Assembly: GCA_008933015.1 (NCBI GenBank)
Contig: WBXH01000006.1
Coordinates: forward strand, 1 to 38,847
DNA: 38,847 nucleotides
DNA from: Verrucomicrobiota bacterium
Lineage (GTDB): Bacteria > Verrucomicrobiota > Verrucomicrobiia > Chthoniobacterales > UBA6821
Reading direction: 5' to 3'
Shown: positions 1,037-5,789 of the stretch, in pieces
Numbering within the stretch: position 1 is the first letter of the stretch
How the letters are laid out: each line of letters starts with the position of its first letter
Translations under genes and position numbers: made by a program
The notes under the pieces: model-generated
What the model was told of the DNA's origin: nothing
Databases searched by the model: none
What the model saw: only the letters and a program-made list of their open reading frames with translations

Positions 1037-2608
1037 TCAGACGCGGGGCATCTCAATACCTGGAGCAGTTTGCTGCATGAGAAGAACGCGGTTAATCGCA
1101 TTCACGTAGGCCCGTGCGGAGGCCTCGATGACGTCGGTGGAGGCCCCTTTTCCAGTGATCAGCCTTCCATCACCGAAGTCAACCTTCAGGGTAACCTCAC
1201 CGAGTGCATCCTGTCCTTCGGTGACTGCCTCAACGAGGTAAACGGCCAGATGACCGGTCTTCTTCACGATCCGGTCGATCGCCTTCATGGCTGCATCGAC
1301 TGCTCCGTTACCGGGGCTCGATTCCTCAATAATCTCTCCGCCATGTCTTAGTTTTACGGTAGCAGTGGGAACGGTGCTCCCGCCGCATACGACCTGCAGC
1401 GACTCCAGTGCATAAGCACCGGTTTCACCGGCAACAGCATCACCAGCGAGGGCAACCAGATCATCGTCGTAGACGAATTTTTTCTTGTCACCAAGCTCCT
1501 TGAATCGGGTGAAGATCGGTGCGATCTCAGCTTCCGTAAGAGTAAGTCCCAACTGCTCAAGACGGGCCACCATGGCATGTCGACCGCTGTGCTTTGTCAA
1601 TGGTAGGTCGGTCCCCCCCCAACCCACGTCGCGGGGATCCATGATTTCATAAGTCTCTCTCATCTTCAGGATGCCATCCTGATGAATGCCAGACCCATGA
1701 GCAAAAGCGTTCTCGCCGATGATGGCCTTGCTACGCGCGACCTGAAGGCCGCTCAGGCGGCTGATTAGGCGAGAGGTCTTCAGGATCTCCTTGGTGGCGA
1801 TTCCGGTGGAAAGTCCTGCAAAGACATCAGGGCGGGTCTTGATCGCCATCACGACTTCTTCAAGCGCGGCGTTTCCGGCCCGCTCACCGATACCATTGAA
1901 AGTCCCCTCGACCTGACGAGCACCGGCTTGGACGGCGGCAAGCGAGTTAGCAACAGCCATGCCGAGATCGTCGTGGCAGTGGACGCTGATCACCGCATTC
2001 TTGATGTCGCGGACATGCTTGCGGAGATAGGTGATCAGATCGGCGTACTGGCCGGGCATGGCATAGCCGACGGTGTCGGGAATATTGACCGTTGTGGCGC
2101 CCGCCTCGATTGCAGCCTGCACGACCTCGGCCAGGAACTCAGGCTCGGTGCGGGAGGCATCCTCTGGGGAGAACTCAACATCCACAGTCATGGACTTGGC
2201 CTGACGTACACCCTCGACAGCCAAGCGGAGAATCTCTTCGTTGGCTTTCTTGAGCTTATGCTCTCGGTGGATCTTGGAGGTCGCTAGGAAGACATGGATG
2301 CGGGCACGCTCACCGGCGGGGAGCAGGGCGCGGCCAGCAGCCTCGATGTCCTTGGGGACGCAGCGCGCGAGGCCGGCAATCACGGGGCCGGTAATCTCGC
2401 GGGCGATCGTCTGCACGGCTTCAAAGTCCCCGTCGCTAATGACAGGAAATCCCGCCTCAATGATATCGACATTGAGGCGAGCAAGTTGCCGGGCGATCTC
2501 GAGTTTTTCACGCAGATTCATCGAGGCACCGGGGCACTGCTCTCCGTCACGCAGAGTCGTATCAAAGATCAGAACCTTATCGGAGTTGATGCCGGTGTCT
2601 GAAATCAT
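1037..2608 (-). CDS. leuA: 2-isopropylmalate synthase
   Basis: 523 aa; LIFDTTLRDGEQCPGASMN, HCHDDLGMAVANSLAAVQAGARQVEGTFNGIGERAGNAALEE and a C-terminal regulatory domain. Confidence 0.96.
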   Translation of the reverse strand: MISDTGINSDKVLIFDTTLRDGEQCPGASMNLREKLEIARQLARLNVDIIEAGFPVISDGDFEAVQTIAREITGPVIAGLARCVPKDIEAAGRALLPAGERARIHVFLATSKIHREHKLKKANEEILRLAVEGVRQAKSMTVDVEFSPEDASRTEPEFLAEVVQAAIEAGATTVNIPDTVGYAMPGQYADLITYLRKHVRDIKNAVISVHCHDDLGMAVANSLAAVQAGARQVEGTFNGIGERAGNAALEEVVMAIKTRPDVFAGLSTGIATKEILKTSRLISRLSGLQVARSKAIIGENAFAHGSGIHQDGILKMRETYEIMDPRDVGWGGTDLPLTKHSGRHAMVARLEQLGLTLTEAEIAPIFTRFKELGDKKKFVYDDDLVALAGDAVAGETGAYALESLQVVCGGSTVPTATVKLRHGGEIIEESSPGNGAVDAAMKAIDRIVKKTGHLAVYLVEAVTEGQDALGEVTLKVDFGDGRLITGKGASTDVIEASARAYVNAINRVLLMQQTAPGIEMPRV

Positions 2609-2640
2609 AGGTCTAGGTATTTTAGAAATCGTGGAGCATG

Positions 2641-2655
2641 CCCGTCATGGACGGG
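2641..2655 (-). promoter_or_regulatory. Stem-loop in leuA leader (CCCGTC-CAT-GACGGG), possible attenuator/sequester hairpin
   Basis: Perfect 6-bp inverted repeat with a 3-nt loop between the candidate leader peptide and leuA. No clear downstream U-tract. Confidence 0.45.
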
Positions 2656-2666
2656 TCAAGACGTTA

Positions 2667-2685
2667 CCCTGTTTAGGAAACAAGG
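2667..2685 (-). promoter_or_regulatory. Stem-loop overlapping the end of the leader ORF (CCUUGUUU-CCU-AAACAGGG)
   Basis: 8-bp stem with one G-U pair and a 3-nt loop. Its 5' arm includes the last Leu codons. Confidence 0.45.
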
Positions 2686-2738
2686 AGAAGAAGGCCGCTG
2701 GCGCGAAGTTCGCAGGCTTTGTCAGCGGCTTGTTTCAT
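2673..2738 (-). CDS. Candidate leucine-rich leader peptide (attenuator) upstream of leuA: MKQAADKACELRASGLLLLVS*
   Basis: ATG at 2738-2736, TAA at 2675-2673. Codons ...GGC CTT CTT CTC CTT GTT TCC TAA give four consecutive Leu, then Val. Lies in the 230-nt leuA 5' region, same strand, and overlaps competing hairpins. Confidence 0.6.
   Translation of the reverse strand: MKQAADKACELRASGLLLLVS
2694..2729 (-). promoter_or_regulatory. Stem-loop inside the leader ORF (GCCGCTG...CAGCGGC)
   Basis: Perfect 7-bp inverted repeat spanning leader codons 4-15, with an inner GCGA/TCGC stem. The 3' arm ends one base into the Gly codon-plus-Leu run junction, just before the Leu codons. Confidence 0.5.
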
Positions 2739-2838
2739 AAACCTAAAATTGCCACAGACCGCACCTACTGGCAACTAATCTCAGGCAGATTGAGTAGGAC
2801 AGCCCCTCCTAAAGGGTTACTGGAGTGGCGGACGGACA

Positions 2839-5064
2839 TTACCCCTCCATTAATGAAGGGATGGTCTTCTCAAAGGTGTCATTGAGATCCCTGACCGGCC
2901 AAGTGTAGACCGAGGCCCCTGTTGTGATCGAGAGATCCGGAACCGCTGTCACGGTGCCAATGAAACGGAAGGAAACGCCACTACTCTTCAACTCAGACTC
3001 AACAAGACTTCTATTTGAAGGAGAAACTGAAATAACGATCCTTCCCTGAGACTCATTAAAGAGATCCACGTCAGCTCTCTGACCGGTCTCTCCAAGATCA
3101 ATGGAGGCCCCGAACTCCGTTCCAAAGCAACTTTCGGCAAGAGCAACAGCAAGTCCACCCTCGGAACAATCATGAGCACTGCAGACAAGTCCCTTGCGGA
3201 TGACGCCTAGCAGGGCGTGATGAATGGCTATTTCCTTTTCAAAATGGAGGACTGGTGGAGCTCCTTCCTTCCGGCCATGGATGGCGAGCAGGTAGTGGGA
3301 TCCACCAAGTTCAGAACCAGTCTCACCGATCAGGATGATCTGATCCCCCTGCCCCTTGAAGGCCTGAGTCGTGAGATGCGCCGCATCATCGATGCGCCCA
3401 ACCATCGAGATGGTCGGAGTCGGATCGATCGCACCAGCGGGACTCTCATTATAGAGGCTGACGTTGCCCCCTGTAACAGGGACGTTGAAGGCACGGCATC
3501 CCTCGGAAATACCCTCCACGGCTGCACGGAGTTGGTAGAAGTTCTCGGGCTTGTGGGGATTGCCAAAGTTGAGGTTGTCGGTGACACCGATCGGTACGGC
3601 TCCTGAGCAGGCTAAGTTACGGGCGCACTCAGCCACCGCGATACGGGCACCGACTAAGGGATCCAGCTTGCAGTAAATGGCGTTACAGTCGGTGGAGGCC
3701 GCAAGAATCTTGTTGGCTTCGCGAACGATAAAGACGGCCGCATCGGAGCCTGGAAGCACAGCAGTTCCCGTGCGGACCATGTGGTCGTACTGGCGCCAGA
3801 CCCAGCGCTTGCTAGCTATGCTTGGGTGAGCAAGGAGGGAAGGGAGTGCCTTCAGCGGATCGGCCTGAGGAACGGATGCCAAATCAAGCGGAGCGGGTGG
3901 GGTGAAGGGCGCCGCCTCACGGCTGTAGAGTGGCCCGTCATCAGCAAGGGCACGGGCGGGAACGTCGACAACAACCTCGTCGCCATTACGCACGCGCATC
4001 TGGCCGTCATCGGTCACAACACCGATCTCGGCATAAGGGAGGTCCCACTTCTCGAAGATCTGCTTGACCGTATCCTCCTGTCCCTTCTTGACGATCACAA
4101 GCATGCGCTCCTGCGACTCGCTAAGGAGAACCTCATAAGGGGTTTGGCCCTTTGCACGCTGGGGCACGAGTTGTATGTCGATCTCAACACCAGTGCCGCC
4201 ACGGCTGGCCGTCTCGCAAGTCGAGCAGGTAAGTCCGGCCGCGCCCATGTCCTGGATGCCGGCAACGCAATCGGTGGCCAAAAGCTCAAGACAGGCCTCA
4301 AGAAGAAGCTTCTCACGGAATGGATCTCCCACCTGAACGGCGGGACGATCTGCTTTCGATTCTTCGGTCAGCTCACGGGAGGCGAATGCGGCACCGGCAA
4401 GACCATCTCGGCCCGTCTCGGCACCGACATAGAAGACCGGGTTGCCAACACCTTCAGCTGCACCGCGCGCGATCTGCTCATGGCGGAGGATACCAAGGCA
4501 GAAGGCGTTCACCAGCGGATTGCCGCTGTAGCTCTCATCAAAATATACTTCGCCGGCGATCGTCGGCAGACCAATGCAGTTTCCGTAGTGGGCGATACCA
4601 GCGACCACTCCCGCGAAGAGTCGGCGGTTGGTCTTGGCTTGCTTGCTGTCACCCTCGATGGATCCGAAGCGAAGGGAATCCATGAGGAATACCGGGCGCG
4701 CTCCCATCGTGAAGATGTCACGGATAATACCACCAACACCTGTGGCCGCTCCCTGAAAAGGTTCCACGGCGCTCGGGTGATTATGGCTCTCGATCTTGAA
4801 GGCCACGGCCCATCCGTCGCCAATATCGATAACCCCGGCATTCTCCTCACCCGCCTTGACCAAGACGCTGGGTCCGGTGGTCGGGAATTTGCGGAGCTCG
4901 GGACGCGAGTTTTTATAAGAACAGTGCTCGCTCCACATGACCGAGAAGACACCGAGCTCCTCAAAGCTCGGCTCGCGGCCCAGTATGGAGAGAACTTTCT
5001 CGTACTCTTCAGGGGAGAGTCCGTGCTTGGCAATGAGTTCGGGAGTGATCTTAGGATTGGCCAT
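2839..5064 (-). CDS. purL: Phosphoribosylformylglycinamidine synthase subunit PurL
   Basis: Starts [25 protein letters not shown]; contains [40 protein letters not shown] and [19 protein letters not shown]. The ORF track starts at 5112; ATG at 5064 is more likely. Confidence 0.96.
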
Positions 5065-5081
5065 GTAAGTAAAATTCGGGG

Positions 5082-5789
5082 TTACTTCTTGGCGTCGTGC
5101 GAAGCCGTCCACTCGATCATCGACTGGAAGATACCGCGACCATCGGTACCACCGAGGATAGGATCACAGACACGCTCGGGATGCGGCATGAGTCCGAAGA
5201 CATTGCGGCCGTGGCTGCAGATACCGGCGATGTTACCCAGCGAACCATTCGGATTCGCTTCCAGAGTCACGTTGCCTGAAGCGTCGCAGTAACGGACAAG
5301 GATCTGAGCATTGGCCTCCAACTGCTTCATGGTCTCAGGATCCGCAAAATAGTTTCCCTCGCCGTGGGCGATCGGGATGTCGAGGACCTGTCCTTCGTGA
5401 AGAACAGAAGTAAAGGGGGCGTCGGTGTTCTCGACGCGAAGTTGGAGATTCTCGCAGCGGAACAGCAGACCGTTATTGCGCAACAGTGTGCCGGGAAGGA
5501 GACCAGCTTCGCAAAGAATCTGAAATCCGTTGCAGATACCGAGCACGAGAACACCGGAATCAGCCGCAGTTCGGACGGCTCCCATGATGGGGGAGAATCG
5601 TGCTATCGATCCGCATCGCAGGTAATCACCGTAGGAGAACCCACCAGGAAGGACGATGGCATCATAGCCGGTAAGGGAGGTCTCCTTGTGCCAGACAATC
5701 TCGGCCATCACACCGGGAAAAGAAGCCAAGGCTGCCTGGCAATCGGTGTCGCAATTCGAACCGGGAAATTGAATGACAGCAACACGCAT
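5082..5789 (-). CDS. purQ: Phosphoribosylformylglycinamidine synthase subunit PurQ (glutaminase)
   Basis: [21 protein letters not shown]...[23 protein letters not shown]...[19 protein letters not shown]. The track's 317-aa ORF overextends the N-terminus into purS. Confidence 0.95.

Follow-up and report, generated by a model that had tools for sequence, protein, structure and literature searches.

A candidate leucine leader-peptide attenuator ahead of leuA in Verrucomicrobiota, diverged or decaying in the copy described here

We analyzed a 38,847-nt stretch of DNA from a Verrucomicrobiota bacterium (contig WBXH01000006.1 of assembly GCA_008933015.1), referred to below as the window, and conclude that the region between its purL and leuA genes is probably a leucine leader-peptide attenuator of leuA, belonging to a leader family that is conserved in the order and present in other Verrucomicrobiota. 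We put the probability of this reading at about 0.72. Judged from sequence, the small ORF in this region appears to be a leucine-responsive leader that is diverged or decaying in the window copy.

A leucine-rich ORF in the purL-leuA gap

The two genes are separated by 230 nt, and the leader lies on the minus strand within this gap (Table 1). An initial annotation had described a 21-codon ORF here with several successive Leu codons towards its end, and a fresh reading of the minus strand returned the ORF, the codons and their positions as stated. Codons 16-20 are CTT CTT CTC CTT GTT. Dinucleotide shuffles of the 230-nt intergenic region were searched for ORFs of 10-45 codons that begin with ATG and encode four Leu residues in a row; 18 of 5000 shuffles contained one. 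In Table 1 and below, RNA segments are numbered as proposed for close relatives, where segment 1 would comprise the Leu codons, segment 2 the post-stop sequence, and segments 3 and 4 the arms of the last hairpin.

Table 1. Features of the leuA leader region (window coordinates; MFE, minimum free energy)
Feature	Position	Strand	Basis and remarks
purL	2839..5112	minus	TIGR01736, 915.5 bits
-35 box TTGCCA of predicted leuA leader promoter	2769..2774	minus	Sequence; TTGCNN with 17-nt spacer recurs in genus members examined
-10 box CAATTT	2746..2751	minus	7 nt upstream of leader ATG; TGTGG before it, as in relatives
Leader peptide ORF MKQAADKACELRASGLLLLVS	2673..2738	minus	Sequence; ATG at 2738..2736, stop TAA ending at 2673; homologous to genus leaders ending RAGGLLLLAL
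Hairpin 0:1, GCCGCTG (2729..2723)/CAGCGGC (2700..2694), 7 bp	2694..2729	minus	Inside ORF; in MFE fold
Control codons CTT CTT CTC CTT (Leu16-19)	2682..2693	minus	Sequence; matching columns 6-8 are Leu in 37/39 in relatives
Hairpin 1:2, CCTTGTTT (2685..2678), loop CCT, AAACAGGG (2674..2667), 8 bp	2667..2685	minus	MFE fold
Hairpin 3:4, CCCGTC (2655..2650), loop CAT, GACGGG (2646..2641), 6 bp	2641..2655	minus	MFE fold; without U-tract
leuA, 2-isopropylmalate synthase	1037..2608	minus	TIGR00973, 701.8 bits

The predicted promoter, whose two boxes are 17 nt apart in the window, stands close to the leader. With the -10 box 7 nt from the ATG, a start 6-8 nt after that box would make the leader transcript leaderless, a geometry that appears common to the leader set: in 44 of 59 distinct leaders (51 of 66 with duplicates) the end of the best sigma-70-like site is 5-10 nt away from the leader ATG, where 18% would be expected and at most 32% was reached in 300 sets of shuffled upstream sequences. 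Shine-Dalgarno-like motifs precede only a few ORFs in the window; none was found at the leuA ATG of the window, and none was seen at leuA in the genus alignment. A published survey of such motifs lists Spartobacteria at 10% (PMC10783764). A predicted leaderless leader would fit this style of translation. We also considered, and rejected, an arrangement in which an AGGAG Shine-Dalgarno box of leuA is hidden by pairing with the Leu codons, as the segment in question is too far from the ATG and Shine-Dalgarno motifs are rare among the window's genes.

Conservation of the leader within the genus

To the genus belong 16 genomes, that of the window (G000) included, which are near deposited Spartobacteria MAGs. 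All 16 carry leuA, and the LeuA proteins of the other 15 are 88-96% identical to that of the window. Three or more successive Leu codons close ahead of the leader stop are present in 12 of the 16 (the window, G001, G002, G003, G004, G006, G007, G008, G010, G013, G014 and G015), and the consensus tail of the genus leaders is RAGGLLLLAL; tails without such a run include GGFLVLAL in G011 and GGVSLLPV in G012. Thirteen relatives were compared pairwise over the last 11 leader codons: in the leader frame 145 of 352 codon differences are synonymous, compared with 61 of 343 and 30 of 362 when the other two frames are read. Leader columns 6-8 encode Leu in 37 of 39 cases in these 13 relatives, with codons varying among CTC, CTT and CTG, and exact matches to the leader motif in the genus occur only at leuA. 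The proposal of a Leu leader peptide ahead of leuA is therefore upheld by homologous leaders in relatives and by synonymous change concentrated in the reading frame, and a search of related genomes recovered Leu-rich ORFs in this genus, in other families and in other orders.

Alternative RNA helices in close relatives

For the post-stop segment GGAGCGGCC, the main clade of the genus offers two pairing partners: the Leu codons, giving 1:2, and GGTCGTTCC, giving 2:3. The second of these helices shares bases with each arm of the last hairpin, GATCCGG-TCGTT-CCGGATC (3:4). Across nine close relatives, 97.5% of cells are paired in 2:3 and 100% in 3:4; when the partners are slid by up to 3 columns, these values fall to 24-53% and 13-71%, respectively. 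Formal covariation analysis of the same nine, the closest relatives, gave no pair with changes on both sides, because the sequences are too alike. The initial annotation had suggested looking for preserved and covarying stems; the nine relatives thus supply the preservation and not the covariation. In the more diverged G015 and G011, a 2:3 helix and a 3:4 hairpin (CCCGG/CCGGG) are retained in different letters.

The relative stability of the helices was compared with each helix enforced. Masking the Leu-codon segment, to mimic a ribosome stalled there, made 2:3 the more stable of the two helices 2:3 and 3:4 in 10 of 11 relatives; with segment 1 left unmasked, the MFE fold of 8 of the 11 contained 3:4. 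The 1:2 stem between the control-codon and post-stop segments is also found in relatives, and analogues of hairpin 0:1 were seen by eye in several, for example GTGCCA/TGGCAC in G010. As predicted from these sequences, the alternative helices of the relatives follow classical attenuator logic. Hairpin 3:4 of the main clade ends about 8-12 nt before the leuA ATG, and in most close relatives it is followed by a short C-U tract (CTTTTTTATG in G003, CTTTTTTACATG in G004) that ends right before that ATG; these hairpins pass a loose terminator scan. Intrinsic termination is therefore likely to be the ancestral output.

We propose a mechanism on the basis of stem conservation, alternative helices and energetics, which were computed, and of translation, stalling and an output by termination or start-site block, which we infer. 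Going by the promoter spacing, transcription would start at or a few nucleotides from the leader ATG, and the leader would be translated as a leaderless ORF. When leucine is plentiful, the ribosome would finish the leader, segment 1 would pair with segment 2, and 3:4 would form just before leuA and lower its expression. It would do so by acting as a short terminator, with the C-U tract behind it, or by drawing the leuA start, which has no Shine-Dalgarno motif, into structure. When leucine is scarce, a ribosome sitting on the Leu codons would allow 2 to pair with 3, and 3:4 would be prevented.

The window copy and its subclade

The three hairpins reported in the initial annotation are located where it placed them, and all of them form in the MFE fold of the predicted transcript, taken from the leader ATG as far as leuA. 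This fold has an energy of -35.3 kcal/mol, against -27.0 +/- 3.1 in shuffles (z -2.65; as good in 4 of 200 shuffles). The whole 230-nt intergenic region gives a z of only -1.5, for a span that includes promoter DNA and does not equal the predicted transcript. Hairpin 1:2 pairs the last Leu codons with the post-stop segment and encloses the stop codon. Hairpin 3:4, which ends 32 nt upstream of the leuA ATG, is the counterpart of the relatives' GATCCGG-NCGTT-CCGGATC and differs from it, as aligned by eye, by two paired changes, T-A to C-G and G-C to T-A.

The three hairpins had also been described as competing. They occupy separate bases and coexist in the MFE fold, and so are not mutually exclusive and do not compete with one another. 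A competing 2:3 helix is absent from the window, where the best pairing is a 4-bp GGGT/ACCC remnant, 3.7 kcal/mol worse than 3:4; the idea of a switch between competing helices is thus not supported for the window copy, whereas 11 relatives have a 2:3 helix that excludes 3:4. A terminator scan of the window found no terminator-like site and no U-tract after 3:4 between the leader and leuA. The earlier remark that the third hairpin lacks an obvious U-tract is accordingly correct for the window, and it is most close relatives that have the short C-U tract.

The purL-leuA gene order is found only in the window's genome, G005 and G009, and promoter spacing is intact in all three. The 1:2 stem persists in this subclade with changed letters, as CCTTGTTT/AAACAGGG in the window and as a perfect 9-bp GGTTATCCT/AGGATAACC in G009. 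The leader of G009 (L157), read from a second contig overlapping the leuA contig, is MKQAFPHVREINYGEHVVIL, with the tail GEHVVIL and hence Val, Val, Ile and Leu codons at its end. That of G005 (L159), MKKSRLKRLRSSFEAAFFSSFF, lacks a Leu run when read from the ATG, and no clear 3:4 hairpin comes after it. The subclade genomes are MAGs in which single-base errors are possible; a single upstream indel would not restore the Leu frame of G005, because a TGA directly precedes it. Between these sister species the sensed amino acid may have changed or been lost.

As the window keeps the ORF, 1:2 and 3:4 and is without 2:3 and the U-tract, its copy is probably a weakened or altered descendant of the switch seen in relatives. 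Should it still regulate, it would more probably do so through Rho or at the level of translation than by intrinsic termination.

Leucine leaders beyond the genus

Leu-rich leaders stand ahead of leuA in six further groups of the order (families f4, f5, f6, f7, f10 and f13), with peptides that include one ending RLGLLPSRLTLLS as well as MRPLLTSRLTLLHGCPL and MRRNGQLLGLALLLLGSGAPNLLLLS; no Leu leader precedes leuA in some members of the order, for example L103, L130, L137 and L142. Other Verrucomicrobiota (L014, L023, L025 and L026) have textbook versions with terminators of 12-14 bp followed by T-tracts, such as GAACCCCACTGCCG-CAACTA-CGGCAGTGGGGTTT plus a T-tract in L014.

Several observations stand beside this survey. 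Loci of families f7 and f10 (L098-L101, L105, L112-L116 and L118) share a conserved element after the leader, GGCATAACTGCG...GGCGTGGTGGGTGCC, in which CCGGCG recurs as CGCCGG near leuA and which looks like a pseudoknot or nested switch; Rfam gave no match for it where tested (L006, L125). Leu-rich ORFs with terminator-like hairpins also precede leuA at L028, L068 and L079, labeled Planctomycetota/Pirellulales/Rubripirellula, and on this sequence evidence Leu attenuators may extend beyond Verrucomicrobiota. In the sister genus g2 of the same family (G016-G021), a leuA match was found in 0 of 6 genomes versus 16 of 16 in the window's genus, making leucine auxotrophy probable there.

Discussion

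Four other explanations bear on the leucine attenuator reading. It is highly improbable that the region is a chance Leu-rich ORF with ordinary hairpins. Short hairpins are common and the intergenic region as a whole folds with a z of -1.5, but the Leu run recurs in 12 of 16 congeners, the exact motif occurs only at leuA, synonymous change is biased to the frame and an LLLL ORF arose in just 18 of 5000 shuffles; conservation of the leader already contradicts this explanation. A decaying relic, which we consider possible though doubtful, is a more serious contender. Here the switch of the subclade would have lost 2:3 and the U-tract, leaving an ORF and hairpins that no longer regulate, with leuA downstream of purL. 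The absence of both elements from the window, the missing Leu run and 3:4 hairpin of G005 and the confinement of the purL-leuA order to three genomes all speak for it. Against decay, the window has an intact ORF with four Leu codons, an 8-bp stem at the stop codon, a 6-bp hairpin and a fold at z -2.65, G009 has its perfect 9-bp stem at the stop together with Val, Val, Ile and Leu codons, and the promoter spacing survives in every subclade member.

The remaining two explanations concern the output. Translational control, in which 3:4 or a longer-range pairing would structure the leuA start and block initiation, as proposed for the actinobacterial LEU element, we regard as unlikely. The position of 3:4 so near the ATG in the main clade speaks for it, and with Shine-Dalgarno motifs rare in the window and at 10% in Spartobacteria (PMC10783764) start-site structure could matter; in the window, however, 3:4 ends 32 nt from the ATG, and leuA has no Shine-Dalgarno motif to sequester. 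A little less probable again is Rho-dependent attenuation, which needs no intrinsic terminator: a ribosome on the Leu codons would cover a Rho loading site or bar Rho from RNA polymerase. The window's missing U-tract is consistent with this, most genus genomes carry two Rho-like genes, and terminator-free leader peptides are known at actinobacterial cys operons and leuA (PMC1262725, PMC8079986), whereas a Rho utilisation site is not recognisable from the window sequence and the hairpin with C-U tract in most close relatives points to ancestral intrinsic termination. Rho homologues are present in 16 of 16 genus genomes; the two Rho-like genes (G000:C34, G000:C1 and their congeners) both score below the TIGR00767 curated cut-off. 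For the window copy, leucine regulation is likely but weakened, with Rho-dependent or translational output and plain decay as live rivals.

Like the classical leu and trp attenuators of Enterobacteria, the leader has a Leu run near the end of a short ORF ahead of a biosynthetic gene, the window has an 8-bp 1:2 stem, and relatives show alternative 1:2/3:4 and 2:3 pairing. The enterobacterial leader ORF has its own ribosome-binding site; the window ORF is instead predicted to be leaderless, and its copy has neither a 2:3 antiterminator nor a terminator U-tract. Actinobacterial leuA leaders are leaderless and often terminator-free (PMC8079986), an example being S. lividans LeuL1, MRFGLLLLSCRGEGL (PMC8079986), and Rho has been suggested for the cys operon leaders of that phylum (PMC1262725, PMC8079986). 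The window resembles them in that its Leu-rich leader stands ahead of leuA, is predicted to be leaderless and is followed by no obvious intrinsic terminator. The base stem of the LEU element joins the Leu codons to the Shine-Dalgarno box of leuA, and the element is able to form a pseudoknot (Seliverstov 2005, PMC1262725). In the window, too, the Leu codons are paired with RNA downstream of them; unlike in the LEU element, leuA has no Shine-Dalgarno motif and hence no such base stem, and the pairing partner comes immediately after the leader stop codon. The mycobacterial leaderless polycysteine uORF attenuators (Canestrari 2020, cited in PMC13236596) are likewise reported to use a leaderless control ORF as an amino-acid sensor, for a different amino acid and different operons.

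Rfam leader families and T-boxes gave no match at gathering score in the window, nothing relevant at E values up to 5 in positions 2400-3000 and nothing relevant at E values up to 0.5 in 20 related leuA loci. According to a 2010 survey, leader-peptide attenuators had been known in no phyla but Proteobacteria and Actinobacteria, and the survey itself contributed a case in Firmicutes (PMC2965389). Our literature search, with subscription journals mostly outside its coverage, found no paper on leader-peptide attenuation in Verrucomicrobiota. The leader is a known kind of control in a new phylum, not a new kind of device.

On a wider reading, which we hold tentatively and at somewhat under even odds, leaderless Leu leaders would control leuA across the phylum, with an output repeatedly rewired among strong terminators, weak terminators overlapping the leuA start and terminator-free forms, and the window's subclade would be caught in the course of changing its sensor, with Leu4 in the window, Val-Val-Ile-Leu in G009 and none in G005. 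The finding provides a leader family with many natural variants in one order of Shine-Dalgarno-poor bacteria, built on a predicted leaderless control ORF, and with it a graded set of natural cases in which to study how attenuators decay or come to alter their output.
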